Assembly (NCBI GenBank): GCA_949361645.1
Contig: OX442415.1
Location: forward strand, 11,015,071-11,079,070
Direction of reading: 5' to 3'
DNA from: Spongilla lacustris
Taxonomy: Eukaryota > Porifera > Demospongiae > Spongillida > Spongillidae
Length of the DNA: 64,000 nucleotides
Positions 6,506 through 29,441 of this stretch are shown in pieces (position 1 is the stretch's first letter; each line of letters starts with the position of its first letter). Under the pieces are notes generated by a model that saw nothing but the letters and a program-made list of their open reading frames with translations, was not told the origin of the DNA and did no database searches. Made by a program: the position numbers and the translations under genes.

Positions 6506-6659
6506 TCACTTCTTTGTTATGATAATTTAGCTTCGCTAAGGTGTAACTTCTTGTGTAAATGTAACGTTTGTCAGAATGTTACCTCAATAGATTGTGAGGA
6601 CAAGCTGACAAACGAGTTCTTAAAAGAACTTTTGATTCAACATGATACACAGTTGCACT

Positions 6660-7275: not shown

Positions 7276-7332
7276 GATGAAATTGAAATGGTAATAATAC
7301 CATGAAATGCATCTCACAATATGGATCATTTG

Positions 7333-9999
7333 TCATGAGCCATGGTCTCTCTTCTTGTGAGTATACAGTGCGGATGAGCTGCCGTACTTATTGCCACACA
7401 CAAAACAGGAAAATGGCTTGTCAATTTCAGATTTTTTCCTACGCCTGCGCTTGGATGGATCCTGGCTTCCTACGTCAACACTGGCACTGTCCACCTTAGT
7501 GGCACCACTGTGTTCATCACCTGGAACAGCAGGCTGCTTGTGAGTCATCTTTTTGTGCAGGGACAGGGCCGAGCCACTGCCATACTTATTGCCACATACA
7601 GTGCACTGGTAGGCAAGGATCAGTTCAGACCTGGGTCTGCGTTTCCTCCTGCCAGAAACACAGCTATTGGCTTCGTCTTGCACTTCACTGTATGTGTCTT
7701 CTGCAGACTCATGACCCTCAACAGTACATGTAGGTGAGTGAGGAAAGGCAGTTGAAGGTCCAGGTTGGTCGTTTTCTGGTAGGGATGAAGCGTTGCCACA
7801 TGGATAGGAAGAGGTGGCCTCTGAGTTTGGTGGAGGTTTTGGACATACTTTGTCCCTTTTTTTGGGGTCACGAACATATTCCCTCACCCTTTCGTACAGG
7901 TACAGTGACCGCATCAGGGACAAACCACTGGGGTTAATAACAGGTGGCATCGATTGGCTCTGATAAGCCTCCTGTATGTCCTTTATGGCCACTCCAGCCC
8001 TCAGCATGCTCATCTCGGTGGGGTTTGTGTCCGATGGTAACATTTTCATTTTCATGACACCAGGGTGTTCTCGGTCAAACTCAAATGTGTGGTAGTGGCC
8101 TAGGCCAGCCAAAGGAGTAAACCACTGGCCCAAGAAGGTGTTCCAGTCATAGTACTGCCAGTTCTGGTACAGCTGTGGCACACAAGTGACATTCTGGCCA
8201 CAGTGTCGGACACAGTCAGCTAGGTCATCCATGTCATCTACATGGTCCTGCCGTCGGTAGTACTTCTTGAACAGGCCAAAGTAGGAATCGGGTCTGAACT
8301 TTGTGTGCCCAGGTAGCATGAAGTTCAGCTGTATGGCGTTATGTTGCCCAGTGATCACCCGCCAGGCCAGGTACCACATCATGGTGGTGTTCTTGTTCTG
8401 GCCCACACAGTTGTCAGCCTGAAGTGTTACACGCCTCTCTCCCAGTCCATGTAGGTGGAAGAATGCGTGCACCAGGCTGACCACTGGTCAGCACCCTTGC
8501 CGGCCTGCTCAGCCTCGTCAATTAAGAAGAACACCTGGCGGCACAGCGGCTCACAACACACACCAAACACCTGGACCTTGCGAGGTGTCCTGAAATAAAA
8601 AGTGCCCCTTTGTTGTGAGCTGTAGGGCAGTGACACCTGCTGGCAGTAGTCAAAGGAGTACTGCATCTGCATGTCCAGGTGGGCATGTGAGGTGAAGGGA
8701 GACATCAGAGCCCTGGATTCCAAGTGACCTAGGATCTGGTCACGCTCCTTCTGTCCCTTCCTTCCCCATTCCTTCTCAGCCTCCTCAATGTTTGCATTGT
8801 AGGCATCACGGAATGCCTTGGCCTTAATGAGGTGTTGGTTGTATTTGTCATTTATTGTTTTGCGCTGCTCGTCGGAAAGGCTGTGCCTCAAAGTGACCAA
8901 CATCTGGTCGCACAGATCGCTGCGTGCAGGTTGGATCTTGATGTTGAAGCAGTACCTGCGCCAGAGTCTAATAAATGACACGTACTTCACCACACGTGCA
9001 GCTGGAGGTGTAGGAGGAGCCGGAGGAACGTTGAGCAAGGTGTACTGCCGCTTCAGCCGAGTGGTCAATTTGTAAGGGCAAGGTTGCTGTGGTGCTGGTG
9101 TGGTCTTTGATATGCACTCCATGGCCTTGCAATACTCGGCGTACACAGACTTTAGTGTTTTGCCACTCTCCAGAACGTAGTCTCTGATCGTCCCTTGCAA
9201 TCGACCAGGGTCAGGGAGGGCATTTGTGGCAGCATAATTCTCAATAAATCTGACCACCATCCTTTTGTCCTCGCGAGAGAGGGCATTGTGAGGAGCCCTG
9301 CCACAGTTGCCATGGGGATGGGGCTCAACATCAGAGTCCAGAGCACACCTGCTGCTGCCAACGCTTCAATGTACGGTAACTTGTGCCAATGACGGCACAG
9401 AAAGCATCCCTGCAGACAGGACTGGACCAGTCAAGGCGATATTGGAATGTATTTCGAGAACCAGATTTGTTCCGAGTCACAGCAAGCATTCCATAAACAA
9501 CTGCCTTTCTGGTTTTCTTGTCCAATCTGGATAATGTGAGTGCTCGTCTTTTGGGCAAGTCACCGTACTTCAATAAGCAGCCGTCTTTGCAGCACCCTCC
9601 TTTAGTGAGGTAGGCATTCAGCATGCGACGTGGACGACACTGTCCCCGTGCTATTCTAGCTGGTACACCATCTGGGCCCTTGCTGACATCATCACCATCG
9701 CCATCACAGTCGCTTCCGCTATCACCATCACAGTCGCTTCCATCACAGTCCTTATCGCTATCACTTCCACCATCATCACTTCCACCATCATCACTTTCAC
9801 CATCACCGTCATCTCCGTCACTTTCACCATCATCGTTGATTCCATCTTCACAGACATCGCTATAAATGCCGTCGGAATCACCACTTCTATATTCACCGTC
9901 GCCATTGGCACCACCCTCCTCATCCACGTCCAAATTATCGTACCATTCGAACTCGTCCGCTGAATGATACACGACGAGCTCGTCGTCAGTTGTCGCCAT
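7333..9999 (-). pseudogene. Zinc-finger transposase-like protein, copy A, frameshifted
   Basis: A second copy of the gene at 25331-28006, running leftward from an ATG at 9999. It keeps the acidic D/G/S-rich N-terminus, the GGCCKDGC cysteine cluster, the ADNCVGQNKN core and two C-terminal C2H2 fingers (CTVCGNKYGSGSALSLHKK and CFVCGNKYGSSSALYTHKK). The reading frame breaks twice compared with copy C: an extra C near 9340 (after the WQQQVCS block) and a change near 8480 (after EAEQAGKGA). In-frame losses include three residues in the CDKCDQ motif. It is therefore unlikely to make full-length protein. Its 5' side leads into the same terminal sequence as the 18-kb foldback element, ending at 10577. 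Confidence 0.88.
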
Positions 10000-10577
10000 A
10001 TCGTTTAAATCTACACAGAAGATAACGAATAACAACTGTAAATACTACTTATTTTTTATACATTATCTCTGCTAATAGGCAAGACCTCACCGATAAATGC
10101 TTTGTAGGTGTGGCTAGGTTAACAAAGTCCCAACCCACAGGAAATAGTTGAATATTCATGTACTTCGGTGAATGGAAACGGTTCGCGCACATACAACGGC
10201 GCGATTCGAGCGGGAAACTTGTACCAACTTTGCGCCGCTGTATCTCAGTAACGGATGACATAAAAATTAACGAACAGAACAAATCAATAGGTATAGGACC
10301 CCTCTACCTACAAACGGAATTTGAAGCGATTTTATTACTCCTACAGAAAGTTATGGCGGGTTTGAACCCGGTGGGGTATCGAACGTTGCAGTACTGATAC
10401 GGAGCAAGTGCAAGACTCCAAAATGTATTTTACGATAGACAAATGCTATAGTATGAAGTGTTGAAAATAAGAAGTTGATACCTTTAACCGTTCGGAAGAT
10501 ATAGCGATTCAAACGAGAAGCATTTTTATAACATTTTATATATATAAACGAAGGGCCATTTTCGTGGAAACTGTCCC
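10000..10577 (-). repeat. Terminal region of transposase copy A element
   Basis: This ~580-bp segment between the copy A start codon and CTGTCCC at 10571-10577 is homologous to 10616-11208 (inverted) and 28007-28601. Shared blocks include CCATAACTTT, AACGTTCGATACCCC, ATAGCGATTCAAAC and GGAAACTGTCCC. It ends in an AT run directly facing the left end of the next element. Confidence 0.88.
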
Positions 10578-10615
10578 ATATATATATATATATATAATTA
10601 TATATATATATATAT
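10578..10615. repeat. (AT)n between two facing element ends
   Basis: About 38 bp of alternating AT separating CTGTCCC (end of element A) from GGGACAG (start of the 18-kb element). The same ATAT context flanks every terminus of this family in the window (28602-28625, 29442-29455, 53094-53096, 53915-53920), suggesting insertion into AT repeats or an ATAT target duplication. Confidence 0.85.
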
Positions 10616-11208
10616 GGGACAGTTTCCGACAAAATGGCCCTTCGTATATATATATAAAATGTTATAAAAATGCTTCTCTTCTGAATTGCTATATCTTCCG
10701 AACGGTTAACGCTATCAACTTCCAATTTTCAACACTTCATACTACACCATTTCCCTATGGCAAAATATATTTTGGAGTCTTGCACTTGCTCCGTGCCAGT
10801 ATTGCAACGTTCGATACCCCATCGGGTTCAAATCCGCCATAACTTTAGGTAGGAGTAATCAAATAGCCTCGAATTCGGTTTATAGGTAGAGGGGTCCTAT
10901 ACCTATCGATTTGTTCTGTTCGTTAATTTTTATGTCATCCGTTATGGAGATACAGCGGCGCAAAGTTGGTACAAGTTTCCCGCTCGAATCGCGCCGTTGC
11001 ATGTGCATGAACCGCTTCCATTCACCGAAGACATGAATATTCAACTATTTCCTGTGGGTTGGGACTTTATTAACCTAGCCACACCTACAAAGCAGGATAC
11101 GATTTATTTATCGATAAAAGACGGTGAGTATTGAAATCAGAATGTTTTTATACAATGTTGCCTATGATAGACAGTTGTTATTCGTTATCTTCTGTGTAGA
11201 TAAACGAT

Positions 11209-12150
11209 ATGGCGAAGTCTGACGACGAGCTCGTCGTGTATCATTCAGCGGACGAGTTTGAATGGTACGAAAATTTGGACGTGGATAGAGAACGGTGGTG
11301 ATGACGGTGGCACCAATGCCGATCGATGGAAGTTATGATTTCGATGGCAGTGTGGCCAGGACGTCACTTGTGTGCCACAGCTGTACCAGGACTGGCAGTA
11401 CCATGATTGAAACACCTTTTTGGGCCAGTGGTTTGGGCCTCTGGTTGGCTTTAGTTGCTACCACACATTTGAGTTTGACCGAGAACACCCTGGTGTCATG
11501 AAAATGAAGACCTTGCCATCGGACACAAACCCCACCGAGGTAACCATGCTGAGGGCTGGAGTGGCCATAAAGGACATACAGGAGGCTTATCAGAGCCAAG
11601 TGATGCCACCTGTTATTAGCCCCAATGGATTGTCCCTGATGCGGTCACTGTACCTGTATGAGAAGGTGAGGGAATACATTCGTGACCCAAGGAAGAGGGA
11701 AGGGTATGTCCAAAGCCTACACCAGGCACTGCTATCAACTCTTCCGAAACACCTGGAGTTCCAGACAGTGACCAACCAGGTCCTTCTAATGCCATTCCTG
11801 ACCCACCTACTGTGGAAGACCATGTTTCCAATAATACAAACAGTGCAATAAATGATGAAGATAAAGGCATTGTGTCTGGCAGGAGAAAACGCAACCCAGG
11901 TCTGAACTGATCTTTGCCTACCTGTGCACAGATTGTGACAAGAAGTATGCCAGTAGCTCGGCCCTGTCCCGGCACAAAAAGAACACAGCCAAGCAGCCTG
12001 CTATGTAGGGGGATGAACAAAGTAAAGCCACAGAGATGGTGGACATTTCCTGTGATGAACAAAGTAGCCAGGGTCCACCTAAGCGTACCCACAGGCCAAA
12101 GTCAGAAATTGATAGAAACTTTTCGTATTCCAAGTGTAGCTTGACTCACA
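11209..12150 (+). pseudogene. Zinc-finger transposase-like protein, copy B, internally deleted
   Basis: Starts like copy C (MAKSDDELVVYHSADEFEWY) and breaks after about 30 codons. At about 11346 it rejoins at the segment equivalent to residue ~605 of copy C (CGQDVTCVPQLYQDWQY), so roughly 1.6 kb including the DNCVGQNKN core is missing. The remainder includes TFEFDREHPGVMKMKTLPSD and EKVREYIRDPRKR, then frameshifts and decayed zinc fingers (CTDCDKKYASSSALSRHKK in a different frame). Non-functional as a transposase. An upstream GTGAGT (near 11124) and CTGTGTAG (near 11200) suggest a 5'-UTR intron, also present in copy C. Confidence 0.88.
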
Positions 12151-12289
12151 CCGCTTACATTAAGAAACAGTACATTGGTACATGTACATGACTAGCAAAC
12201 TGAAGATCCTGGATCCATGTCATGGTAAGGTGCACTTTGTATCTAAGTCTGTTATGTCAACCTCGTGTACAAAAATTCGTGTCACCACA

Positions 12290-15200
12290 CACATCTGTAC
12301 CAGTGTACCAGTGTACCAGTGTCACTATTTACACCGTGCACAGAGTCTGTTGTGGTGACATGTACCCAGTGTACCAGTGTCGCTATTTACACCGTGCACA
12401 GAGTCTGTTGTGGTGACATGTACATGTACCCAGTGTACCAGTGTCACTATTTACACTGTGCACAGAGTCTGTTGTGGTGACATGTACATGTACCCAGTGT
12501 ACCAGTGTCGCTATTTACACCGTGCACAGAGTCTGTTGTGGTGACATGTACATGTACCCAGTGTACCAGTGTCACTATTTACACTGTGCACAGAGTCTGT
12601 TGTGGTGACATGTACATGTACCCAGTGTACCAGTGTCACTATTTACACCGTGCACAGAGTCTGTTGTAGTGACATGTACCCAGTGTACCAGTGTACCAGT
12701 GTCACTATTTACACTGTGCACAGAGTCTGTTGTGGTGACATGTACATGTACCCAGTGTACCAGTGTCACTATTTACACCGTGCACAGAGTCTGTTGTAGT
12801 GACATGTACCCAGTGTACCAGTGTACCAGTGTCACTATTTACACTGTGCACAGAGTCTGTTGTGGTGACATGTACATGTACCCAGTGTACCAGTGTCACT
12901 ATTTACACCGTGCACAGAGTCTGTTGTAGTGACATGTACCCAGTGTACCAGTGTCGCTATTTACACCGTGCACAGAGTCTGTTGTGGTGACATGTACATG
13001 TACCCAGTGTACCAGTGTCACTATTTACACTGTGCACAGAGTCTGTTGTGGTGACATGTACATGTACCCAGTGTACCAGTGTCACTATTTACACCGTGCA
13101 CAGAGTCTGTTGTAGTGACATGTACCCAGTGTACCAGTGTACCAGTGTCACTATTTACACTGTGCACAGAGTCTGTTGTGGTGACATGTACATGTACCCA
13201 GTGTACCAGTGTCACTATTTACACCGTGCACAGAGTCTGTTGTAGTGACATGTACCCAGTGTACCAGTGTACCAGTGTCACTATTTACACTGTGCACAGA
13301 GTCTGTTGTGGTGACATGTACATGTACCCAGTGTACCAGTGTCACTATTTACACCGTGCACAGAGTCTGTTGTAGTGACATGTACCCAGTGTACCAGTGT
13401 ACCAGTGTCACTATTTACACTGTGCACAGAGTCTGTTGTGGTGACATGTACATGTACCCAGTGTACCAGTGTCACTATTTACACCGTGCACAGAGTCTGT
13501 TGTGGTGACATGTACCTGTGTACCAGTGTCACTATTTACACTGTGCACAGAGTCTGTTGTGGTGACATGTACCCAGTGTACCTGTGTACTAGTGTCACTA
13601 TTTACACTGTGCACAGAGTCTGTTGTGGTGACATGTACCAATGTACCAGTGTCACTATTTACACCGTGCATAGGGTCTGTTGTGGTGACATGTACCCAGT
13701 GTACCAGTGTACCAGTGTCACTATTCACACCGTGCACAGAGTCTGTTGTGGTGACATGTACCCAGTGTACCAGTGTCACTATTTACACCGTGCATAGAGT
13801 GTGTTGTGGTGTCATGTACCCAGTGTACCAGTGTCACTATTTACACTGGTCACAGAGTCTGTTGTGGTGACATGTACCCAGTGTACCAGTGTCACTATTT
13901 ACACCGTGCCCAGAGTCTGTTGTGGTGACATGTACCCAGTGTACCAGTGTCACTATTTACACCGTGCACAGAGTCTGTTGTGGTGACATGTACCCAGTGT
14001 ACCAGTGTCACTATTTACACCGTGCATAGAGTCTGTTGTGGTGTCATGTACCCAGTGTACCAGTGTCACTATTTACACTGGTCACAGAGTCTGTTGTGGT
14101 GACATGTACCCAGTGTACCAGTGTCACTATTTACACCGTGCACAGAGTCTGTTGTGGTGACATGTACCCAGTGTACCAGTGTACCAGTGTCACTATTCAC
14201 ACCGTGCACAGAGTCTGTTGTGGTGACATGTACCCAGTGTACCAGTGTCACTATTTACACCGTGCATAGAGTGTGTTGTGGTGTCATGTACCCAGTGTAC
14301 CAGTGTCACTATTTACACTGGTCACAGAGTCTGTTGTGGTGACATGTACCCAGTGTACCAGTGTCACTATTTACACCGTGCCCAGAGTCTGTTGTGGTGA
14401 CATGTACCCAGTGTACCAGTGTCACTATTTACACCGTGCACAGAGTCTGTTGTGGTGACATGTACCCAGTGTACCAGTGTCACTATTTACACCGTGCATA
14501 GAGTCTGTTGTGGTGTCATGTACCCAGTGTACCAGTGTCACTATTTACACTGGTCACAGAGTCTGTTGTGGTGACATGTACCCAGTGTACCAGTGTCACT
14601 ATTTACACCGTGCACAGAGTCTGTTGTGGTGATATGTACCCAGTGTACCTGTGTACTAGTGTCACTATTTACACCGTGCATAGAGTCTGTTGTGGTGATA
14701 TGTACCAGTGTACCAGTGTCACTATTTACACTGTGCACAGAGTCTGTTGTGGTGACATGTACCCAGTGTACCAGTGTCACTATTTACACTGTGCACAGAG
14801 TCTGTTGTGGTGACATGTACCCAGTGTACCAGTGTACCAGTGTCACTATTTACACTGTGCACAGAGTCTGTTGTGGTGACATGTACCCAGTGTACCAGTG
14901 TACCAGTGTCACTATTTACACTGTGCACAGAGTCTGTTGTGGTGACATGTACCCAGTGTACCAGTGTACTAGTGTCACTATTTACACCGTGCACAGAGTC
15001 TGTTGTGGTGACATGTACCCAGTGTACCAGTGTACTAGTTACACTATTTACACCGTGCACAGAGTCTGTTGTGGTGACATGTACCCAGTGTACCAGTGTA
15101 CTAGTGTCACTATTTACACTGTGCACAGAGTCTGTTGTGGTGACATGTACCCAGTGTACCAGTGTACTAGTGTCACTATTTACACCGTGCACAGAGTCTG

Positions 15201-17090
15201 TTGTGGTGACATGTACCCAGTGTACCAGTGTCACTATTTACACCGTGCATAGAGTCTGTTGTGGTGACATTTACCCAGTGTACCAGTGTACCAGTGTCAC
15301 TATTTACACCGTGCACAGAGTCTGTTGTGGTGACATGTACCCAGTGTACCAGTGTACCAGTGTCACTATTTACACCGTGCACAGAGTCTGTTGTGGTGAC
15401 ATGTACCCAGTGTACCAGTGTCACTATTTACACCGTGNNNNNNNNNNNNNNNNNNNNNNNNNNNNNNNNNNNNNNNNNNNNNNNNNNNNNNNNNNNNNNN
15501 NNNNNNNNNNNNNNNNNNNNNNNNNNNNNNNNNNNNNNNNNNNNNNNNNNNNNNNNNNNNNNNNNNNNNNNNNNNNNNNNNNNNNNNNNNNNNNNNNNNN
15601 NNNNNNNNNNNNNNNNNNNNNNNNNNNNNNNNNNNNNCAGTGTCACTATTCACACCGTGCACAGAGTCTGTTGTGGTGACATGTACCCAGTGTACCAGTG
15701 TCACTATTTACACCGTGCACAGAGTCTGTTGTGGTGACATGTACCCAGTGTACCAGTGTCACTATTCACACCGTGCACAGAGTCTGTTGTGGTGACATGT
15801 ACCCAGTGTACCAGTGTATCTGTTGTGGTGACATGTACCCAGTGTACCAGTGTCACTATTCACACCGTGCACAGAGTCTGTTGTGGTGACATGTACCGAG
15901 TGTACCAGTGTCACTATTTACACCGTGCACAGAGTCTGTTGTGGTGACATGTACCCAGTGTACCAGTGTCGCTATTTACACCGTGCATAGAGTCTGTTGT
16001 GGTGTCATGTACCCAGTGTACCAGTGTCACTATTTACACTGGTCACAGAGTCTGTTGTGGTGACATGTACCCAGTGTACCAGTGTCACTATTCACACCGT
16101 GCACAGAGTCTGTTGTGGTGACATGTACCCAGTGTACCAGTGTCACTATTCACACCGTGCACAGAGTCTGTTGTGGTGACATGTACCCAGTGTACCAGTG
16201 TCACTATTTACACCGTGCACAGAGTCTGTTGTGGTGACATGTACCCTGTGTACCAGTGTCACTATTTACACTGTGCACAGAGTCTGTTGTGGTGACATGT
16301 ACCCAGTGTACCAGTGTACCAGTGTCACTATTCACACCGTGCACAGAGTCTGTTGTGGTGACATGTTCCCAGTGTACTAGTGTACCAGTGTCACTATTTA
16401 CACCGTGCACAGAGTCTGTTGTGGTGACATGTACCCAGTGTACCAGTGTCACTATTCACACCGTGCACAGAGTCTGTTGTGGTGACATGTACCCAGTGTA
16501 CCAGTGTCACTATTTACACCGTGCACAGAGTCTGTTGTGGTGACATGTACCCTGTGTACCAGTGTCACTATTCACACCGTGCACCGAGTCTGTTGTGGTG
16601 ACATGTACCCAGTGTACCAGTGTCACTATTTACACCGTGCACAGAGTCTGTTGTGGTGACATGTACCCTGTGTACCAGTGTCACTATTTACACTGTGCAC
16701 AGAGTCTGTTGTGGTGACATGTACCCAGTGTACCAGTGTACCAGTGTCACTATTCACACCGTGCACAGAGTCTGTTGTGGTGACATGTACCCAGTGTACC
16801 AGTGTCACTATTTACACCGTGCACAGAGTCTGTTGTGGTGACATGTACCCAGTGTACCAGTGTCACTATTCACACCGTGCACAGAGTCTGTTGTGGTGAC
16901 ATGTACCCAGTGTACCAGTGTCACTATTCACACCGTGCACAGAGTCTGTTGTGGTGACATGTACCCAGTGTACCAGTGTCACTATTTACACCGTGCACAG
17001 AGTCTGTTGTGGTGACATGTACCCTGTGTACCAGTGTCACTATTCACACCGTGCACAGAGTCTGTTGTGGTGACATGTACCCAGTGTACA
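12290..17090 (+). repeat. ~58-bp satellite array with higher-order structure
   Basis: Unit of 58 bp containing CAGTGTCACTATTTACACCG, TGCACAGAGTCTGTTGTGG and TGACATGTACC. Variants gain 12 bp (an extra CAGTGTACCAGTG step) or 6 bp (an extra CATGTA). Exact higher-order repeats are visible: a 130-bp dimer between 12.6 and 13.5 kb, a 446-bp block repeated (12575 to 13021), a 472-bp block (13801 to 14273) and a 422-bp block (16198 to 16620). Because 58 is not a multiple of three the array gives open frames in all phases, which are not genes. It contains the assembly gap at 15438-15637. Confidence 0.96.
15438..15637. other. Assembly gap (200 N)
   Basis: Exactly 200 Ns inside the satellite, a conventional placeholder size. 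The true array length, and so the true length of the left arm, is unknown. Confidence 0.99.
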
Positions 17091-17968
17091 AGTGTACATG
17101 TGCATGTACCTGTGTCACTAGTTTGAAGTGACGACATGTTACATGTACCACAACAGACTTAGTGCACAGTGTGAACAGTAACACTGGTATATGTCACTCC
17201 AGTCCTCCCTCTTGTCCACTCCACTCCTCTGTCAGTGTCACCATTACATGTATTATTATCTGCTGGTTAAAGTTGTTCTTCATTTGTACTTGTACATGTG
17301 TATTCATCTGCAAATGAACTTAAAAGGTTCTTTTAAGAACTTCCACATGTGTGTGGAATTTACATGTACTATTACAAATGATGTCACCTTTGTTCTGCAC
17401 TACCTTGGTTCAGTTGGTTGACGACAATTGATTTGTCCATGCTACATGTACATATATGTCTCATAATGGTGCAGAGGTATAAGGTTTTGTTTTCTATCCT
17501 CCCATGTGTTTAACATGGCCTAAGAGTAATAAGGATTCCTTGGTTCACATTTGTTTACTTTGATAAGCTAATTAAGCACTGCATATCTTGATGAGCTACA
17601 CCCAGTCACTTACCCTGTGGTTGTATTGCACCAGCATCAAAGGAGTTTACATTTTCCTTAGGTTGTTTTTGTTGCATGAAATTCATTTTTACTACTCATG
17701 GCTAGACTATTGTTGAACGCATATTTAAAGAGGGATAGTACAATGTACATGTGTGTAGATAGAATGTATCTGATGCTCAATGTAATGATCTAAGGTAGTA
17801 GGTAAGGCTGCAATGACTTTAGCTAATGTAACTTAGTGTTTTTGTGATTTTTTTGTATTACATGTACAGTCATTTCAAGAGTACTGTCTTCACTATGCAT
17901 CCATCTTCACTGTATATATGTATATCTGAAGATCATTACTTTAAATCTGAATGGTTTATTATAATAAT

Positions 17969-18544
17969 TCACTTTGGTGCCATAATCCGTTCACATTCCT
18001 GTGTGTCAGGGAAACTTATGTCCCAAATGCGAGGGTCACTGTCTGGTGGTAGATGAAGATGTTTATGCCTGCACGTGCTTCTTATATGTTCCCTTGTATC
18101 CTTATGGATACCACCAACTCCACATGCAAACCACTGCATGGAATAAGTGTATACAATGTACATGTAACTCAAGAAATGCACCTTACTTTGTAGTCATGTG
18201 TACCACCTTTCGGTTTTCATCTTTTAATATGACCTCGTCTTCCAGATCCATCTCCTCCACTTTGGTCACCTCTGGGTCACATTCGTCATCACTGTCTGTG
18301 ACGAGCTCTTCTGGCGATCTGGCCTGCGTGGGACACTCACTATAGGAATACTGTACATAATGGTACAAAACTATATCAGTGACCTTTGGATGTACATGTA
18401 CATGTAAAGGTGTTGATTCCAGTACAGTTGTCTTAGTGACCAACATGCAGGATATCATGTGTATGCCAATTAAATGCTGTTTTTGTTACTTACCGACAAA
18501 ACAGCTGTTGCTTCCTTAGGCTTTGCACCGTGTATTGTTTCCAT
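17969..18544 (-). CDS. Small spliced acidic protein with Cys/His C-terminus
   Basis: I read three minus-strand exons. Exon 1 (18544-18494) begins at an ATG in a good context (AAAACATGG), encodes 17 residues (METIHGAKPKEATAVLS) and ends at a strong GTAAGT donor; a TTTTGTTTCTTGCATAG acceptor lies just upstream, so a 5'-UTR exon is likely. Exon 2 (18323-18207) follows a CCCACGCAG acceptor, is in phase and very acidic (PEELVTDSDDECDPEVTKVE). Exon 3 (18133-17969) follows TTCCATGCAG and encodes WFACGVGGIHKDTREHIRST then CRHKH, ending at TGA. The exon 2 donor is the weak point: GTGGTA keeps the frame, while a better GTAAGG 20 bp on would not. No family is recognised; the C..H..C..H..H spacing hints at metal binding. 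About 110 residues. Confidence 0.45.
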
Positions 18545-19491
18545 GTTTTGCCTATGCAAGAAACAAAATCCTATACATTTATTAAATATTAGTAAACTAA
18601 ACTGAGCAATAATTGGGCTATTTTATCCTCCAGCTCTCCGTTTCTGCTCTTCTCTTTGAGTAGATCTTTCTTGAGGGCTAACGTTCCGATTGATGATCCA
18701 AGAATACATGGGCATACACAATGTAAATCAACTTACTCTCGTTTTCATGTTCTGCCTGCTCAATTGCTATCAAAGGTGCAGTTTAACTTCATTTAGTGTA
18801 GCGAACACACACATAACGGACACAGCTAGCTAGCGCGCTTTAGAAATTAGTTCTTACGTCGGCGATAATTTCCGGATGCTCATAGGCCTATATAAATTCA
18901 GATTGCTGTCACTCTCTGCATGTAACTACCGTACATGTAATTGCCAGCCGGTAATACTTCAAATGGGAGCTTCGAATTCATCGTAAGACGTGCATGCAGT
19001 TTGTCTAAATTCAATTCGTATTAAACATGTACCTTTTATGTACATGTACATTTAGGAGTCAAACTCCTACCCCCTCTTCAAATGCAATGGAACGATCGAA
19101 TCAGAGCGATGCGACCGATCAAAGGTAATTTTGAAAAGTGTTTGATTTCCACACGCGTACGCTATTGCGATAGTAGAGCCAGGCATAGTTTTGCCCAGGC
19201 GTTGCGCTGTCATGCAGTTACAATAATGCCGGTATTCAGTTGCGATGCTGCAAAGAGTATATGTGCATCTTTTACTACTAGTCGGTCTCGAGCGCGACAA
19301 CGGCGTGGATGGGGAAGCCGCCGACGTCAAAGAGTAAGCGCACTTTCAATACCACGTACGCAATATAGAATGCATTGTTAATTTCGTGTTATTATCGACA
19401 GAGATTTAGGCGAAATCGGCGAACCGAGCACCCCTCCCAAGTTGAGCATGCAAACCAATAGCTTCATTATAATATAGGCTCTTTTCCTACT

Positions 19492-20130
19492 ATGATAACA
19501 GCATGTACAATGTACATGTACTTCCTCCCATGGCCCAGCCAGCGGTCCAAGCTCCTCTCTACCAGCGGTCCAAGCTACTCCCCAGCCTGTGGTCCAAGCT
19601 ATATGTACATGTACTACCCAGCCTGCAGTCCAAGCTACATGTACATGTACTACCCAGCCTGTAGTCCAAGCTACTACCCAGCCTGCAGTCCAAGCTACAT
19701 GTACATGTACTACCCAGCCTGCAGTCCAAGCTACATGTACATGTACTACCCAGCCTGCAGTCCAAGCTACATGTACATGTACTACCCAGCCTGCAGTCCA
19801 AGCTACATGTACATGTACTACCCAGCCTGTGGTCCAAGCTACTCCCTTGCCACTGGTCCAGGCTCCTCCCCTGCCGTCAAGCCTACCTCCTCCCCTGCCG
19901 TCAAGCCTACCTCCTCCCCTGCCGTCAGGCCTACCTCCTCCCCTGCCGTCAGGCCTACCTCCTCCCCTGCCGTCAAGCCTACCTCCTCCCCTGCCGTCAA
20001 GCCTACCTCCTCCCCTGCCGTCAAGCCTACCTCCTCCCCTGCTTGCAGGCCTACCTCTTCCCCTGCCGTCAGGCCTACCTCCTCCCCTGCCGTCAGGCCT
20101 ACATGTACCTTCTTTCCTACCACAAAGTAA
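19492..20130 (+). CDS. Proline-rich minisatellite ORF
   Basis: Contains two adjacent minisatellites whose units are multiples of three: a 36-bp unit (CTACATGTACATGTACTACC + CAGCCTGCAGTCCAAG; about 19605-19840) and a 24-bp unit (CCTACCTCCTCCCCTGCCGT + CAAG; about 19868-20110, roughly ten copies). The frame from 19492 reads YYPACSPSYMYM repeats then SSPAVKPT repeats. Other frames are also open because of the unit lengths, so coding is not proven. If coding, it would be a repetitive secreted or structural-type protein. Its place in the element centre matches no known transposase component. Confidence 0.3.
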   Translation: MITACTMYMYFLPWPSQRSKLLSTSGPSYSPACGPSYMYMYYPACSPSYMYMYYPACSPSYYPACSPSYMYMYYPACSPSYMYMYYPACSPSYMYMYYPACSPSYMYMYYPACGPSYSLATGPGSSPAVKPTSSPAVKPTSSPAVRPTSSPAVRPTSSPAVKPTSSPAVKPTSSPAVKPTSSPACRPTSSPAVRPTSSPAVRPTCTFFPTTK

Positions 20131-20133
20131 TAC

Positions 20134-20409
20134 ATGTACACAACATCCTCAATTTATGTTTCTAACGTGAATTTGTTGCCAGCAGGTAACTATCAGCCAC
20201 CACCATGGTGGACATATCCACCATGGTGGCTCTGTCAGCCCCAGAGTGCTCAGTCATGGAGATGCCAGACTGAATGGGAACAACCATGGAGTGAGCCTTT
20301 GACTCAGCCACAAAGGGGTGAGCAGCCAAGGAGAGGTTGGCGAAGGAGGAGGGGACCCAGAAGGTTGGATCAGCTCCAGAACATTGAAGACACACCCTTA
20401 AATACATAG
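20134..20409 (+). CDS. Pro/Gln/Trp/Arg-rich ORF in element centre
   Basis: The open frame reads NYQPPPWWTYPPWWLCQP, then WRCQTEWEQPWSEPLTQPQR and an arginine cluster GWRRRRGPRR, ending at TAG. A TTGTTGCCAGCAG acceptor-like site precedes the YQPPP segment, so it may be a 3' exon of the preceding repeat ORF. Nucleotide words CTATCAGCCA, CAGTCATGG and ACCATGGA are shared with the 6.3-kb ORF of the neighbouring element, in the same order. The function is unknown. Confidence 0.35.
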   Translation: MYTTSSIYVSNVNLLPAGNYQPPPWWTYPPWWLCQPQSAQSWRCQTEWEQPWSEPLTQPQRGEQPRRGWRRRRGPRRLDQLQNIEDTPLNT

Positions 20410-20936
20410 CAGTGACAAAAACATCTGCACATCTACATGTACTATTGATCCAGCCATTTCATATCTTATTGCTATAATATCACCCAGCAATAGCAATTTT
20501 GACAATTCTTTTCCATGGAGGATAAGTACATGTACACATAAGCTGGGAAAATTCATCAGAGTCACTTTTAAACATCCAACAATGTATGTACATGGTCCAA
20601 TATTATAGTATTCATAGAACTTAGGTTTCTCTACATCTATCCACAACAACCTCCCCCTATTGTTATCATCCAAAATTCATACCATCTCATGCATTTAAAA
20701 AAAACAACAATGCATGTCCTACATGTAGGTAATCCTAAGCATCCTATACACTTTTATACAGTGGTCTACAAACACATTACCCAAATCCATTTACATGTAT
20801 ACATTCTGTTCATTTGTAGTGCAGAATAAAGGTGACATCATTTGTAATTGTAAAATGCCACACAACTATGTGGCGAGTTCTTAGAAGAACCTTTTTTACA
20901 GAATCAACATGTACATGTATACCATAAAACAAAAAC

Positions 20937-23900
20937 ACCAGACTCTGTGCACGGTGTAAATAGTGACACTGGTACACTGGGTACATGTCACCACAACAGA
21001 CTCTATGCACGGTGTAAATAGTGACACTGGTACACTGGGTACATGTCACCACAACAGACTCTGTGCACGGTGTAAATAGTGACACTGGTACACTGGGTAC
21101 ATGTCACCACAACAGACTCTATGCACGGTGTAAATAGTGACACTGGTACACTGGGTACATGTCACCACAACAGACTCTGTGCACGGTGTAAATAGTGACA
21201 CTGGTACACTGGGTACATGTCACCACAACAGACTCTGTGCACGGTGTAAATAGTGACACTGGTACACTGGGTACATGTCACCACAACAGACTCTGTGCAC
21301 GGTGTAAATAGTGACACTGGTACACTGGGTACATGTCACCACAACAGACTCTGTGCACGGTGTAAATAGTGACACTGGTACACTGGGTACATGTCACCAC
21401 AACAGACTCTGTGCACGGTGTAAATAGTGACACTGGTACACTGGGTACATGTCACCACAACAGACTCTGTGCACGGTGTAAATAGTGACACTGGTACACT
21501 GGGTACATGTCACCACAACAGACTCTGTGCACGGTGTAAATAGTGACACTGGTACGCTGGGTACATGTCACCACAACAGACTCTGTGCACGGTGTAAATA
21601 GTGACACTGGTACACTGGGTACATGTCACCACAACAGACTCTGTGCACGGTGTAAATAGTGACACTGGTACGCTGGGTACATGTCACCACAACAGACTCT
21701 GTGCACGGTGTAAATAGTGACACTGGTACACTGGGTACATGTCACCACAACAGACTCTGTGCACGGTGTAAATAGTGACACTGGTACACTACATGGGTAC
21801 ATGTCACCACAACAGACTCTGTGCACGGTGTAAATAGTGAAACTGGTACACTGGGTACATGTCACCACAACAGACTGTGCACGGTGTAAATAGTGACACT
21901 GGTACACTGGGTACATGTCACCACAACAGACTCTGTGCACGGTGTAAATAGTGACACTGGTACACTGGGTACATGTCACCACAACAGACTCTGTGCATGG
22001 TGTAAATAGTGACACTGGTACACTGGGTACATGTCACCACAACAGACTCTGTGCACGGTGTAAATAGTGACACTGGTACACTGGGTACATGTCACCACAA
22101 CAGACTCTGTGCATGGTGTAAATAGTGACACTGGTACACTGGGTACATGTCACCACAACAGACTCTGTGCACGGTGTAAATAGTGACACTGGTACACTGG
22201 GTATATGTCACCACAACAGACTCTGTGCACGGTGTAAATAGTGACACTGGTACACTGGTACACTGAGTACATGTCACCACAACAGACTGTGTGCACGGTG
22301 TAAACAGTGACACTGGTACACTGGGTACATGTCACCACAACAGACTCTGTGCACGGTGTAAATAGTGACACTGGTACACTGGGTACATGTCACCACAACA
22401 GACTCTGTGCACGGTGTAAATAGTGACACTTGTACACTGGGTATATATCACCACAACAGACTCTGTGCACGGTGTAAATAGTGACACTAGTACACTGGGT
22501 ACATGAACATGTCACCACAACAGACTCTGTGCACAGTGTAAATAGTGACACTGGTACACTGGGTACATGTCACCACAACAGACTCTGTGCACGGTGTAAA
22601 TAGTGACACTGGTACACTGGGTACATGTACATGTACATGTCACCACAACAGACCCTGTGCACAGTGTAAATAGTGACACTGGTACACTGGGTACATGTCA
22701 CCACAACAGACTCTGTGCACGGTGTAAATAGTGACACTGGTACACTGGGTATATGTCACCACAACAGACTCTGTGCACGGTGTAAATAGTGAAACTGGTA
22801 CACTGGTACACTGGGTACATGTCACCACAACAGACTGTGTGCACGGTGTAAATAGTGACACTGGTACACTGGGTACATGTCACCACAACAGACTCTGTGC
22901 ACAGTGTAAATAGTGACACAGGTGCACTGGGTACATGTCACCACAACAGACTCTGTGCACGGTGTAAATAGTGACACAGGTACACTGGGTACATGTCACC
23001 ACAACAGACTCTGTGCACGGTGTAAATAGTGACACTGGTACACTGGGTACATGTCAGCACAACAGACTCTGTGCACGGTGTAAATAGTGACACTTGTACA
23101 CTGGGTATATATCACCACAACAGACTCTGTGCACGGTGTAAATAGTGACACTAGTACACTGGGTACATGAACATGTCACCACAACAGACTCTGTGCACAG
23201 TGTAAATAGTGACACTGGTACACTGGGTACATGTCACCACAACAGACTCTGTGCACGGTGTAAATAGTGACACTGGTACACTGGGTACATGTACATGTAC
23301 ATGTCACCACAACAGACTCTGTGCACGGTGTAAATAGTGACACTGGTACACTGGGTACATGTCACCACAACAGACTCTGTGCACGATGTAAATAGTGACA
23401 CTGGTACACTGGGTACATGTCACCACAACAGACTCTGTGCACGGTGTAAATAGTGACACTGGTACACTGGGTACATGTCACCACAACAGACTCTATGCAC
23501 GGTGTAAATAGTGACACTGGTACACTGGGTACATGTCACCACAACAGAATCTGTGACCAGTGTAAATAGTGACACTGGTACACTGGGTACATGTCACCAC
23601 AACAGACTGTGCACGGTGTAAATAGTGACACTGGTACACTGGGTACATGTCACCACAACAGACTCTGTGCACGGTGTAAATAGTGACACTGGTACACTGG
23701 GTACATGTCACCACAACAGACTCTATGCACGGTGTAAATAGTGACACTGGTACACTGGGTACATGTCACCACAACAGACTCTGTGACCAGTGTAAATAGT
23801 GACACTGGTACACTGGGTACATGTCACCACAACAGACTGTGCACGGTGTAAATAGTGACACTGGTACACTGGGTACATGTCACCACAACAGACTCTGTGC

Positions 23901-25205
23901 ATGGTGTAAATAGTGACACTGGTACACTGGGTACATGTCACCACAACAGACTCTGTGCACGGTGTAAATAGTGACACTGGTACACTGGTACACTGGGTAC
24001 ATGTCACCACAACAGACTCTGTGCACAGTGTAAATAGTGACACTGGTACACTGGTACACTGGGTACATGTCACCACAACAGACTCTATGCACGGTGTAAA
24101 TAGTGACACTGGTACACTGGTACACTAGGTACATGTCACCACAACAGACTCTGTGCACGGTGTAAATAGTGACACTGGTACACTGGGTACATGTCACCAC
24201 AACAGACTCTGTGCACGATGTAAATAGTGACACTGGTACACTGGTACACTCGGTACATGTCACCACAACAGACTCTGTGCACAGTGTAAATAGTGACACT
24301 GGTACACTGGTACACTAGGTACATGTCACCACAACAGACTCTGTGCACGGTGTAAATAGTGACACTGGTACACTGGGTACATGTACATGTACATGTCACC
24401 ACAACAGACTCTGTGCATGGTGTAAATAGTGACACTGGTACACTGGGTACATGTCACCACAACAGACTCTGTGCACGGTGTAAATAGTGACACTGGTACA
24501 CTGGGTACATGTCACCACAACAGACTGTGTGCAGGGTGTAAATAGTGACACTGGTACACTTTTACACTGGGTACATGTCACCACAACAGACTCTGTGCAC
24601 GGTGTAAATAGTGACACTGGTACACTGGGTACATGTCACCACAACAGACTCTATGCACGGTGTAAATAGTGACACTGGTACACTGGGTACATGTCACCAC
24701 AACAGATTCTGTGCACGGTGTAAATAGTGACACTGGTACACTGGGTACATGTCACCACAACAGACTGTGTGCAGGATGTAAATAGTGACACTGGTACACT
24801 TTTACACTGGGTACATGTCACCACAACAGACTCTGTGCACGGTGTAAATAGTGACACTGGTACACTGGGTACATGTCACCACAACAGACTCTGTGCACGG
24901 TGTAAATAGTGACACTGGTACACTGCAGCGTACATGTCACCACAACAGACTCTGTGCACAGTGTAAATAGTGACACTGGTACACTGGGTACATGTCACCA
25001 CAACAGACTCTGTGCACGGTGTAAATAGTGACACTGGTACACTGCAGCGTACATGTCACCACAACAGACTCTATGCACGGTGTAAATAGTGACACTGGTA
25101 CACTGGGTACATGTCACCACAACAGACTCTGTGCACAGTGTAAATAGTGACACTGGTACACTGGGACTCTGTGCACGGTGTAAATAGTGACACTGGTACA
25201 CTGGT
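20937..25205 (-). repeat. ~58-bp satellite array, inverted copy
   Basis: The same 58-bp satellite as at 12290-17090 but in reverse orientation (GTGCACGGTGTAAATAGTGA, CACTGGTACACTGGGTACAT, GTCACCACAACAGACTCT). A 548-bp higher-order block is repeated (22092 to 22640), and a 240-bp block carrying a TTTTACACTGGG variant is repeated (24487 to 24727). The opening part (20940-21800) is nearly uniform, indicating recent homogenisation. It ends beside transposase copy C, as its mirror image ends beside copy B. Confidence 0.96.
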
Positions 25206-25330
25206 GTACATGTGTGTGGTGACACCAATTTTTGAACATGGTGATGATGTAACAGATATAGAAACACAGAGCACCTCACCATGTGTGATGAACATGGATC
25301 CAGGAGGAGGAGGTCCCTTTAGATTGCTAG

Positions 25331-28006
25331 TCATGTACCATTGTGGGTGTGCTTAATGTGAGTATGCAATGCAGTTTGAGTGCCATATTTCAAGGGACAC
25401 TGGGAACAGGAAAACTTTCTATCAATTTCAGATTTTTTCCTACGCCTGCGCTTGCAGGGTGGACCCTGGCTTCCTTCGTCAACACTGGCATTGTCCGCCT
25501 TAGTGACATCACGGTGTTCATCACCTGGAACAGCAGGCTGCTTGTGAGCTGTGTTCTTTTTGTGCAGGGACAGGGCTGAGCTACTGGCATACTTATTGCC
25601 ACATACAGTGCACTGGAAGGCAAGGATTAGTTCAGACCTGGATCTGCGTTTCCTCCTGCCAGAAACACAGCTATTGCCTTCGTCTTGCATATCACTGTGA
25701 GTGTCATCTGCAGACTCCTGGCCCTCAACAGTAGGTGGGTCAGGAATGGCATTAGAAGGACCTGGTTGGTCACTGTCTGGAACTCCAGGTGTTTCGGAAG
25801 AGTTGATAGCAGTGCCTGGTGTAGGCTTTGGACATACCCTGTCCCTCTTCTTTGGGTCACGAATGTATTCCCTCACCTTCTCATACAGGTACAGTGACCG
25901 CATCAGGGACAATCCATTGGGGCTAATAACAGGTGGCATCACTTGGTTCTGATAAGCCTCCTGTATGTCCTTTATGGCCACTCCAGCCCTCAGCATGGTT
26001 ACCTCGGTGGGGTTTGTGTCCGATGGCAAGGTCTTCATTTTCATGACACCAGGGTGTTCTCGGTCAAACTCAAATGTATGGTAGCGGCCAAAGCCAACCA
26101 GAGGCCCAAACCACTGGCCCAAGAAGGCATTCCAGTCATGGTACTGCCAGTCCTGGTACAGTTGTGGCACACAAGTGACGTTCTGGCCACACTGCCGGAC
26201 ACAGTCAGCTAGGTCATCCATATCATCTACATGGTCCTGTCTTCGGTAGTACTTCTTGAACAGGCCAAAGTAGGAATCGGGTCGAAACTTTGTGTGCCCA
26301 GGTAGCATGAAGTTCAGCTGGATGGTGTCATGTTGTCCAGTGATCACCCGCCAGGCCAGGTACCACATCATGGTGGTGTTCTTGTTCTGGCCCACACAGT
26401 TGTCGGCCTGAAGTGTTACACGCCTCTCTCCCAGTCCATGTAGGTGGAAGAATGCATGCACCAGGCTGACCACCACCACAGCACCCTTGCCGGCCTGCTC
26501 AGCCTCATCAATTAGGAAGAACACCTGGCGGCACAGCGGCTCACAACACACACCAAACACCTGGACCTTGCGAGGTGTCCTGAAATAAAAAGTGCCCCTT
26601 TGTTGTGAGCTGTAGGGCAGTGACACCTGCTGGCAGTAGTCAAAGGAGTACTGCATCTGCATGTCCAGGTGCAGGGCTTGTGAGGTGAAGGGAACCATCA
26701 GGGCCCTGGATTCCAAGTGACCCAGGATCTGGTCACGCTCCTTCTGTCTCTTCCTTCCCCATTCCTTCTCAGCCTCCTCAATGTTTGCATTGTAGGCGTC
26801 ACGAAATGCCTTGGCCTTAATGAGGTGCTGGTTGTAATTGACATTTATTGTTTTGCGCTGCTCATCAGAAAGGCTGTGCCTCAAAGTGACCAACATCTGA
26901 TCACACTTGTCGCACAGATCGCTGCGTGCAGGTTGGATCTTGATGTTAGAACAGTATCTTCGCCACAGTCTAATAAATGACACGTACTTCACCACACGTG
27001 CAGCAGGGGGTGTTGGAGGAGCCGGAGGAACGTTGAGCAAGGTGTACTGCCGCTTCAGCTGACTGGTAAGTCGGTAAGGGCAAAGTTGCTGTGGTGCTGG
27101 TGTGCTCCTGGACAGGGACTCCATGGCCTTGCAATACTCGGCATACACAGACTTTAGTGTTTTGCCACTCTCCAGAACATAGTCTCTGATCGTCCCTTGC
27201 AAACGACCAGGGTCAGGGAGGGCATTTATGCCAGCATAGTTCTCTATAAATCTGACCACCATTGTCTTGTCCAAACGAGAGAGGGCATGGCGAGGAGCCC
27301 TGCCACAGTTACCATGGGGATGGGGCTCAACATCAGAGTCAGAGCACACCTGCTGCTGCCAGCGCTTCAATGTACGGTAACTTGTGCCAATGACGGCACA
27401 GAAAGCATCCCTGCAGACAGGACTAGACCAGTCAAGGCGATACTGGAATGTATTTCGAGAACCAGATTTGTTCCGAATCATAGCTAGCATTCCATAAATA
27501 ACAGCCTTTCTGGTTTTCTTGTCCAATCTGGATAATGTAAGTGCTCGTCTTTTGGGCAAGTCACCGTACTTCAATACACAGCTGTCTTTGCAGCACCCTC
27601 CTTTAGTGAGGTAGGCATTCAGCATGCGACAGGGGTGACACTGTCCCCGTGCTATTCTAGCTGGTACACCACCTGGGCCCTCGCTGACATCATCACCATC
27701 ACCATCACCATCACAGTCGCTTCCGCTATCACCATCACACTCGCTCCTGCTATCATCATCACTGCCCTTATCGCTATCACCTCCACCATCATCACTTTCA
27801 CCATCACCGTCATCTCCGTCGCTTTCACCATCGTTGATTCCACCTTCACAGACATCGCTATAAATGCCGTCGAAATCATCACTTCCATATTCACCGTCGC
27901 CATTGTCACCACCGTTCTCAATCTCCTCATCCACGTCCAAATTATCGTACCATTCGAACTCGTCCGCTGAATGATACACGACGAGCTCGTCGTCAGACTT
28001 CGCCAT
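25331..28006 (-). CDS. Intact 891-residue zinc-finger transposase-like protein
   Basis: Single open frame from ATG 28006 to a stop at 25331. Residues ~20-115 are an acidic D/G/S-rich tail. Residues ~123-143 hold a cysteine cluster (CHPC, GGCCKDSC). Residues ~190-225 include SSPVCRDAFCAVIGTSYRTL, a motif common in this family. A CDKC pair lies near 366. The core has LHLDMQMQYSFD (~446-456), QADNCVGQNKN (~533-543) and LPGHTKFRPDSYFGLFKKYY (~568-587), a plausible RNase-H-like acidic-residue core. Two C2H2 fingers close the protein (CTVCGNKYASSSALSLHKK; CSQCPLKYGTQTALHTHIKH). The layout resembles DUF7869-type proteins of invertebrate mobile elements, but that name is from memory. An upstream GTGAGT...CTGTGTAG pair suggests a 5'-UTR intron. 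It is the only intact copy here. Confidence 0.9.
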   Translation of the reverse strand: MAKSDDELVVYHSADEFEWYDNLDVDEEIENGGDNGDGEYGSDDFDGIYSDVCEGGINDGESDGDDGDGESDDGGGDSDKGSDDDSRSECDGDSGSDCDGDGDGDDVSEGPGGVPARIARGQCHPCRMLNAYLTKGGCCKDSCVLKYGDLPKRRALTLSRLDKKTRKAVIYGMLAMIRNKSGSRNTFQYRLDWSSPVCRDAFCAVIGTSYRTLKRWQQQVCSDSDVEPHPHGNCGRAPRHALSRLDKTMVVRFIENYAGINALPDPGRLQGTIRDYVLESGKTLKSVYAEYCKAMESLSRSTPAPQQLCPYRLTSQLKRQYTLLNVPPAPPTPPAARVVKYVSFIRLWRRYCSNIKIQPARSDLCDKCDQMLVTLRHSLSDEQRKTINVNYNQHLIKAKAFRDAYNANIEEAEKEWGRKRQKERDQILGHLESRALMVPFTSQALHLDMQMQYSFDYCQQVSLPYSSQQRGTFYFRTPRKVQVFGVCCEPLCRQVFFLIDEAEQAGKGAVVVVSLVHAFFHLHGLGERRVTLQADNCVGQNKNTTMMWYLAWRVITGQHDTIQLNFMLPGHTKFRPDSYFGLFKKYYRRQDHVDDMDDLADCVRQCGQNVTCVPQLYQDWQYHDWNAFLGQWFGPLVGFGRYHTFEFDREHPGVMKMKTLPSDTNPTEVTMLRAGVAIKDIQEAYQNQVMPPVISPNGLSLMRSLYLYEKVREYIRDPKKRDRVCPKPTPGTAINSSETPGVPDSDQPGPSNAIPDPPTVEGQESADDTHSDMQDEGNSCVSGRRKRRSRSELILAFQCTVCGNKYASSSALSLHKKNTAHKQPAVPGDEHRDVTKADNASVDEGSQGPPCKRRRRKKSEIDRKFSCSQCPLKYGTQTALHTHIKHTHNGT

Positions 28007-28601
28007 ATCGTTTATCTACACAGAAGATAACGAATAACAACTGTCTATCATAGGCAACATTGTATTAAAAACATTCTGATTTCAATACTCACCGTCTTTT
28101 GTCGATAAATAAATCGTATCCTGCTTTGTAGGTGTGGCTAGGTTAATAAAGTCCCAACCCACAGGAAATAGTTGAATATTCATGTACTTCGGTGAATGGA
28201 AGCGGTTCATGCACATGCAACGGCGCGATTCGAGCGGGAAACTTGTACCAACTTTGCGCCGCTGTATCTCCATAACGGATGACATAAAAATTAACGAACA
28301 GAACAAATCGATAGGTATAGGACCTCTGTACCTACAAACCGAATTTGAGGCGAATTGATTACTCCTACCTAAAGTTATGGCGGATTTGAGCCCGATGGGG
28401 TATCGAACGTTGCAATACTGGCACGGAGCAAGTGCAAGACTCCAAAATGTATTATACCATAGGGAAATGGTGTAGTATGAAGTGTTGAAAATAGGAAGTT
28501 GATAGCATTAACCGTTAGGAAGATATAGCAATTCAAAAGAGAAGCATTTTTATAACATTTTATATATATATACGAAGGGCCATTTTGTCGGAAACTGTCC
28601 C
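28007..28601 (-). repeat. Right terminal region of the 18-kb element
   Basis: Near-identical inverted partner of 10616-11208, running from the copy C start codon to CTGTCCC at 28595-28601. It includes the candidate 5'-UTR intron and presumably the promoter of copy C. Then (AT)n to 28625. Confidence 0.88.
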
Positions 28602-28625
28602 ATATATATATATATATATATATAT

Positions 28626-29441
28626 GGGACAGTATCCGCGAAAATTTCGTACGTTTTATATCATTATAAGATAATAGTGTTATAACGTTTGAATCGCTAT
28701 ATCTTCCGAACGGTAAACATTATTGACATCCTATTTTCAACACTTTATACTACACCATTTCTCTATGACAAAATACATTTTGGAGTCTTGCACTTGCTCC
28801 TTGTCAGCATTGCAACGTTCGATACCCCACCGGGTTCAAACCCGCCATAACTTTCGATAGGAGCAATCAAATCGCTTCAAATTCGGTTTGTAGGTAGAGA
28901 GGTCCTATACCTATCGATTTGTTCTGTTCGTTAATTTTTATATCATCCGTTATGGAGATACAGTTGAACAAACTACGTGCATTTTTTCCCGCTTGATTCG
29001 CGCCAATGATTTGGGCAAATCGCTTCTCGCTCAATGTATGGGGAGGCGGTGGTTATATCATTGGCGCGAATCAAGCGGGAAAACGCACACGTAGTTTGCT
29101 CAACTGTATCTCTGTAACGGATGGCATAAAAATTAACGAACAGAACAAGTAGATAGGTATAGGACCTCTCTACCTACAAACCGAATTTGAAGCGATTTGA
29201 TTGCTCCTATCGAAAGTTATGGTGGCTTTGAACCCGGTGGGGTATCGAACGTTGCAATGCTGGTACGGAGCAACTGCAAGACTCCAAAATGTATTTTGTC
29301 ATAGAGAAATGGTGTAGTATGAAGTGCTGAAAATAGAATGTCAATAACGCTTAACGTTCGGAAGATATAGTGATTCAAACGTTATTACACTATTGTTTTA
29401 TAATGTTATAAAACGTACGAAAGTTTCGCGGATACTGTCCC
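28626..29441. mobile_element. 816-bp foldback (MITE-like) derivative of the giant element
   Basis: Starts GGGACAGTATCCGCGAAAAT and ends with the reverse complement (ATTTTCGCGGATACTGTCCC-type). The whole length is a near-perfect inverted repeat with a short loop near 29010-29060 (GCTCAATGTATGGGGAGGCG). About 400 bp of each arm is homologous to the termini of the 18-kb element. It has no coding capacity, so it must depend on a transposase from elsewhere. It abuts the 18-kb element across an AT run. Confidence 0.92.

Follow-up and report, generated by a model that had tools for sequence, protein, structure and literature searches.

A probable recently active foldback-type DNA transposon with mirrored satellite arrays in Spongilla lacustris

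The window analysed here is a stretch of 64,000 nucleotides from the Spongilla lacustris genome (C1:11015071-11079070; C1 has 31,127,168 bases, and the genome searched comprises 248,560,934 bases in 51 contigs). Positions 10616 to 28601 of the window are occupied by a single mobile element of about 18 kb, with tips GGGACAGTTTCC starting at 10616 and GGAAACTGTCCC ending at 28601, both of which lie in AT repeats and are exact to the base. A second related element, named element A, adjoins it directly on the left, and a short palindromic derivative abuts it on the right. The features of these elements are as follows, in window positions.

1-10577, minus strand: right part of element A (whole element by its tips C1:11012764-11025647, 12.9 kb)
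1-1687: 48-bp array of element A
about 1690-3721: palindromic centre of element A
3722-5852: 71-bp array of element A, in opposite orientation
7333-10044: broken DUF7869 gene of element A, whose tip is at 10577
10612-10615, no strand: left target duplication ATAT, 4 bp, in AT repeat (flank match, 14/14 copies)
10616-11208, plus strand: left terminal inverted repeat, 593 bp (genome search and repeat alignment)
11209-12290, plus strand: left-arm transposase gene remnant with internal deletion, frame broken (constant length, 10/10 copies)
12291-17104 (repeats 12304-17097), plus strand: left satellite array, 58-bp unit, about 4.8 kb
17105-20925, no strand: centre, 3,821 bp (0 differences, 10 copies)
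20926-25210 (repeats 20935-25165), minus strand: right satellite array, 58-bp unit inverted, about 4.3 kb
25331-28006, minus strand: transposase gene, intact, 891 aa
28008-28601, minus strand: right terminal inverted repeat, 594 bp (genome search and repeat alignment)
28602-28605, no strand: right target duplication ATAT, 4 bp
28626-29441, no strand: short palindromic derivative with related termini and without an array, abutting the main element across an AT run
53097-53914, no strand: second short palindromic derivative with related termini and without an array

The left and right terminal inverted repeats (TIRs) are identical in 577 of 595 alignment columns (97%), and their outermost 65 bases match perfectly. 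The original prediction, of a single unit at this position with both termini in AT repeats and with the same 58-bp satellite in opposite orientation on its two sides, is borne out to the base, and in one reference copy the left and right satellite consensus sequences are identical. It had further placed a transposase-like gene reading inward in each arm. This is true of the right arm, which has the intact gene, but the left-arm copy has lost internal sequence and its reading frame is broken; it retains about 30 codons from the start of the gene and broken pieces of the C-terminal third. With only a dead remnant of the gene on the left, the mirror symmetry of the arms is partial. The centre contains 24-36-bp tandem repeats and no convincing gene (five ORFs were tested against Pfam, none matching at the curated cut-off), and no RNA gene was found in the element at the Rfam gathering threshold. 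An assembly gap of 200 N interrupts the left array of the window copy (15438-15637); the N count is zero in the nine other copies that were read at full length.

We searched the genome with separate parts of the element, scoring the best 38-40 candidates per query, so that the resulting counts are lower bounds. The left terminus was recovered at 99-100% identity in 35 of 40 scored places. The right terminus and the gene segment that is missing from the left arm were each recovered at 100% in 38 of 40 places and at 99% in the other two. The centre was found at full length and about 100% identity in 35 of 38 places, the remaining three being partial or 98% identical. The same order had been expected at other loci, and it was found both by coordinates, with left tip, gene and right tip correctly ordered and oriented around 29 of the 38 scored centres, and by sequence, with terminus, remnant, satellite, centre, satellite, gene and terminus following one another in 10 of 10 full copies read. 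Each of the nine other centres either has no partner among the best-scored matches or sits in a rearranged copy. The 29 complete copies measure 17.6-23.0 kb each and 550 kb in total, and have 22 distinct lengths, with five copies sharing a length of 18,020 bp. Similarly, 29 of 30 left-end loci that were read reach the satellite, differing at 0-2 positions along 2,093 bp, the exception (L015) being a deletion derivative. An identical 891-aa protein is encoded in 57 contigs of a protein collection.

The flanks of the copies carry a target site duplication (TSD) of 4 bp in all 14 copies for which both flanks were read (13 ATAT and one AATT). Four base pairs is the sole TSD length that fits all 14; taken singly, 13 of them also fit 2 bp, which the copy on contig C12 alone excludes. 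An (AT)n run of at least 6 stands at the end of 22 of 30 left flanks, compared with 0.2% of random positions, and inspection by eye places the lone AATT site in the middle of an AT-rich palindrome. Empty sites without the entire unit had been named as expected support, and contig C5 has one, for the copy at C5:839400-857107. This site, 6 kb away at C5:832955-833254 and within a local duplication, matches the joined 150-bp flanks plus one ATAT in 300 of 300 bases (100%). A second empty-site search, for the C12 copy across the genome, returned just that copy's own two flanks and one partial match of 72%. The element is thus inserted as one piece of 17.6-23 kb, with an AT-palindromic 4-bp TSD and mostly in (AT)n-rich sites.

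These observations bear on two trivial accounts of the locus. Two independent insertions could have come to lie head to head, with a satellite between them by chance, and family elements do adjoin one another at AT repeats: positions 1-29441 hold three in a row (element A, then the main element, then a short derivative), and 10 of 30 left flanks have a family-like tip just across the AT run. However, the whole order recurs on many contigs around a constant centre, the outer ends carry matching 4-bp duplications and the empty site lacks the entire unit, so we reject this account as extremely improbable. That the arrangement results from collapsed or copied contigs is also very improbable. Nine further copies are free of N, one copy's flanks are contiguous in an independent empty site, the same protein occurs in the many contigs of the protein collection, and 25 of 30 left flanks have no partner with which they share a long stretch. 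These facts outweigh the gap in the window array, the near-perfect identity of the copies, the short contigs of the published assembly (N50 0.3 Mb in the excerpted report, PMC12141999) and the 850-1,460 bp that five of 30 left flanks share at 99% or more, stretches which are themselves family repeats.

The element combines inverted termini with a target duplication, as is characteristic of cut-and-paste transposons, and its long TIRs, internal tandem repeats and middle domain are those of foldback elements. We consider it, with a probability of roughly 0.8, to be a complete and recently active cut-and-paste DNA transposon of the foldback type. It has spread very recently, as dozens of almost identical copies.

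The 891-aa product matches the domain DUF7869 (PF25273) with 58 bits, against a Pfam gathering cut-off of 26, and its gene is intact in nine of the 10 copies read. The protein has an acidic N-terminus, a predicted RNase H-like core with candidate catalytic residues D456, D535 and D577, and C2H2 zinc fingers. Its structure model is of modest confidence (mean pLDDT 61); a Foldseek search of the model against the PDB gave no match at E≤0.001, a PDB sequence search gave nothing of weight, and no NCBIfam match reached its cut-off. Among the Pfam matches there is no THAP domain, nor is there a MULE transposase domain or PHD finger, a missing match being weak evidence. Homologues of the transposase include ones named from Ephydatia muelleri, and insertion sequences of bacteria (Thiomargarita, a Legionellales MAG, Desulfocicer and others) encode members of the same Pfam family. 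At five of nine bacterial loci, a candidate element measures about 2.05-2.12 kb and has both inverted repeats and G-rich tips, while the other four have weaker repeats or other lengths. On visual inspection, a 4-bp AT duplication is present at the bacterial loci L059 (AATT) and L068 (ATTT), and no clear 4-bp duplication was found at the ends in the other seven. These bacterial elements differ from the sponge element in being about nine times smaller, with TIRs of about 40 bp and no satellite seen. Among viral contigs, 76 stretches matched the search pattern and none encodes a relative. A literature search found no paper naming 'DUF7869'; through the present element, this functionally uncharacterised Pfam domain becomes connected with a mobile element whose relatives extend from bacteria to sponges.

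The original prediction had also taken this layout to be unknown among described families, which was too strong, as excerpts of published descriptions already make clear. The Drosophila virilis element Tetris has long inverted repeats composed of a flanking domain, inner tandem repeats of variable number and a middle domain (PMC4079207), the TIRs of Galileo hold tandem repeats (PMC3573991), within which binding sites of the transposase domain have been identified (PMC3688188), and the MULE Rehavkus has a minisatellite before its 3′ TIR (PMC6446971). The foldback elements Tetris, FB and Galileo thus resemble the sponge element in having tandem repeats in their inverted-repeat arms. In contrast to the sponge element, which is 18-23 kb long, with arrays of about 3.7-6.5 kb of a 58-bp unit, a 4-bp TSD and a DUF7869 gene between tip and array, Tetris is described with repeats of about 220 bp, TIRs of at most 1.7 kb, an 8-9-bp TSD and no conserved ORF. 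Galileo is described as a member of the P superfamily with TIRs of up to about 1.26 kb, its longest-TIR copies lacking a transposase ORF. Rehavkus has a PHD finger and a minisatellite on one side, whereas the sponge element has C2H2 fingers and arrays on both sides. The mismatch in TSD length leads us to reject membership in either Galileo/P (7 bp; PMC3573991) or Rehavkus/MULE (9 bp; PMC6446971).

In TSD and protein length the element resembles Sola2-type elements as published, a likeness of description on which we do not assign it to that group. Those of Dictyostelium fasciculatum encode a putative transposase of 888 aa and have AT-rich 4-bp TSDs (AWWT), and Sola2 chimeras of Polysphondylium pallidum have the TSDs ATAT, AAAT and ATTT (PMC3627910). 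They differ in having TIRs of 12-21 bp, and the excerpted description mentions no arrays (PMC3627910). Insertion into microsatellites is likewise described for two plant elements, MuTAnT (PMC4486113) and SaTar, the latter forming side-by-side, non-nested arrays of elements (PMC5907723), but both are Mutator-like. Relative to the foldbacks compared here, as excerpted, the sponge element is set apart by its size, by the intact transposase gene within an arm, by the family of its transposase and by how young its copies are. New here are therefore the intact gene inside one arm, the DUF7869 transposase and the very large arrays; foldback arms with tandem repeats were already known. A literature search by titles and abstract openings found no description of this sponge element.

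The satellite arrays are the one part of the element that varies greatly between copies. Over the non-array parts (1,675 + 3,821 + 3,391 bp), 10 copies have 0-1 differences from the window copy, except for one copy with a 1,030-bp gene insertion. In one reference copy, the arrays comprise 35 monomers of exactly 58 bp on the left and 47 on the right, with the same consensus, and monomer identity is 0.966 within the left array, 0.973 within the right and 0.968 between arms. When arrays were compared with those of the reference copy, 17 of 18 comparisons contained no point mismatch and the remaining one contained a single mismatch; four of the 18 were identical and 13 had one or two indels of 8-1,746 bp, while the window copy's left array differs at the N gap alone. 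Indels with almost no point mismatch imply that blocks of the arrays change far faster than point mutations accumulate, subject to assembly error, since the short contigs and the gap in the window array mean that some array-length differences could be erroneous. Seven array insertions are at least 58 bp long: four of them equal the adjacent block (three exactly, one at 99.6%), a fifth reproduces without change a block from another part of the array, and the last two are of a more complex kind. Despite these changes, at least 3.6 kb of array per arm is kept in all 10 copies read.

Several copies or ends have irregular structures. A 35-kb copy (C24:4556307-4591235) has two centres in the same orientation, 12.1 kb apart, between one left and one right end, and looks like a duplication of array-centre-array. 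A 1,030-bp insertion whose ends resemble an inverted repeat lies within the transposase gene of the copy at C1:9022453-9043175 (L048-L050). At both C3:837883-837892 and C3:884257-884266, two right ends in opposite orientation abut 8 bp apart; these places are about 46 kb from each other and have in common a left flank of just 47 bp at 89% beside the tip.

Element A represents a second subfamily with mirrored arrays. Over 3.7 kb of gene and terminus, its DNA and that of the main element are about 88% identical, and the gene copy in the window is frame-broken. Its centre has arms of 826 and 849 bp that are 81% identical. In all 11 scored copies, including that of the window, the 48-bp array, centre and 71-bp array are continuous, eight of these copies matching the whole query and three matching from base 23-25. 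A search with the centre gave 33 places that match along the full query, or almost so, at 92-100%, one place at 86% and otherwise partial matches (best 40 of 895 candidates). Right ends and gene segments matched in 40 of 40 scored places each, at 96-100% and 95-100%, respectively. One element A copy of 23.3 kb (C13:1899832-1923134) has gene segments on either side of one centre, and may represent either one palindrome with a gene in each half or a pair of elements.

The repeat units of the two subfamilies are partly related. The alignment score of the 48-bp and 58-bp units in the same orientation was reached by 2 of 1000 dinucleotide shuffles, and that of the 48-bp unit with the reversed 71-bp unit by 5 of 1000. 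The 58-bp and 71-bp units are not significantly similar by this measure (257/1000 direct, 220/1000 reversed). Mononucleotide shuffles gave 0/500 and 6/500 for the two orientations of this pair, and because both orientations score, a kept orientation is not established for it. A core common to all three units, which mononucleotide shuffles had indicated, was accordingly dropped, dinucleotide shuffles leaving the 58-48 pair and the 48-reversed 71 pair. The satellite core scores 42 in the 48-bp array of element A, where shuffles reached 24-31; in the 71-bp array it scores 31, equal to the null maximum of 31 and so not above shuffles. Leaving aside the main element's own arrays and that 48-bp array, the core has one good match, a degenerate unit in inverted orientation where the centre borders the left array (score 58, near 17125). 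No match above shuffles was found in the TIRs or the short derivatives, which argues against the arrays being extra terminal binding sites, and the idea that the unit is a copy of a terminal binding site was rejected on this result.

The short derivatives are palindromic and about 820 bp long, and sequences like them lie next to several left ends. With up to 2 mismatches allowed, the tip pattern has 1,069 occurrences in the genome, compared with 0 for a reversed control. The short forms have multiplied despite lacking arrays, which are therefore dispensable for them. As for the neighbourhoods of the long copies, L008, L027 and L028, on different contigs, have a common left neighbour of 1.45 kb (at least 99%) that ends in a related terminus, and the left flank of L011 is about 93% like it; such shared neighbours may reflect a shared insertion preference or joint movement. 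L003 (C6) and L005 (C5) have the same approximately 75 bp directly before the left tip and different flanks beyond it, and this stretch may be a shared repeat or flank that was carried along.

We propose a mechanism by which the element could move and change. The transposase, with its predicted RNase H-like core, would cut at the GGGACAG tips and would recognise the outer 380 bp or so, the part common to the short derivatives, using its C2H2 fingers for DNA binding. One arm may have been duplicated in inverted orientation to give the two-armed form, and internal deletion would later have led to the decay of the left gene. The arrays could gain and lose blocks by out-of-register copying in the repair of excision gaps, or by unequal exchange, and sequence exchange between the arms is suggested by the fact that left and right monomers are as alike between arms as within them.

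What the arrays do for the element, if anything, is a separate question. They may be passengers, minisatellites with a single origin in an ancestral arm that have since grown and shrunk through slippage and gap repair and contribute nothing to transposition, a reading to which we give somewhat less than an even chance. It agrees with the multiplication of derivatives that lack arrays, with array lengths that are highly unstable while nearly all else is constant, with units that differ between subfamilies and, in element A, between arms (48 and 71 bp), and with a unit that has no above-shuffle similarity to the termini. It sits less easily with the persistence of mirrored arrays in two subfamilies that are about 12% apart in gene and terminus, with the relatedness of the 48- and 58-bp units in the same orientation and the resemblance of the 48-bp unit to the reversed 71-bp unit, or with the minimum of array that every copy read retains in each arm. 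The recurrence of mirrored arrays, with partly related units, in the second subfamily makes us lean slightly, at about even odds, towards some helping role of the arrays in the long element. The most plausible such role would be that of additional sites for transposase binding or end pairing, which has been proposed for Galileo. A stronger version of this helping role appears doubtful to us. In that version, the mirrored arrays would be a functional, inherited organ of an autonomous DUF7869 lineage, which loads or pairs transposase to join ends that are 18-23 kb apart, and which is re-copied out of register by transposition, its length recording the history of each copy.

The family makes such proposed roles of tandem repeats in transposon arms testable. 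With at least 29 copies of the full layout, nearly invariant non-array sequence in the 10 copies read and clean array blocks, array turnover can be counted directly. Near-identical copies that differ mainly in array length are a clean natural experiment on how a repeat-armed transposon moves and changes.

The window also contains other repeats. A different DNA transposon at 33330-37287 has 556-bp inverted repeats that are 99.8% identical, tips GGGTCAATACA, a 4-bp flanking repeat GCCT and a 718-aa ORF (34533-36689), with about eight 30-bp repeats just before the ORF. The D..C..Q.KN and H.K..D motifs of this ORF align with the DUF7869 core at a level that is not significant (hhalign, E 0.17), and as judged from sequence this transposon is at most a distant cousin of the DUF7869 elements. 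A hAT-like transposase (Dimer_Tnp_hAT, DUF4371) lies at 30256-32940, in two open frames of one register with a stop between them. Finally, a palindrome of 792 bp at 47527-48318, about 75% self-complementary, is a short foldback-like repeat.
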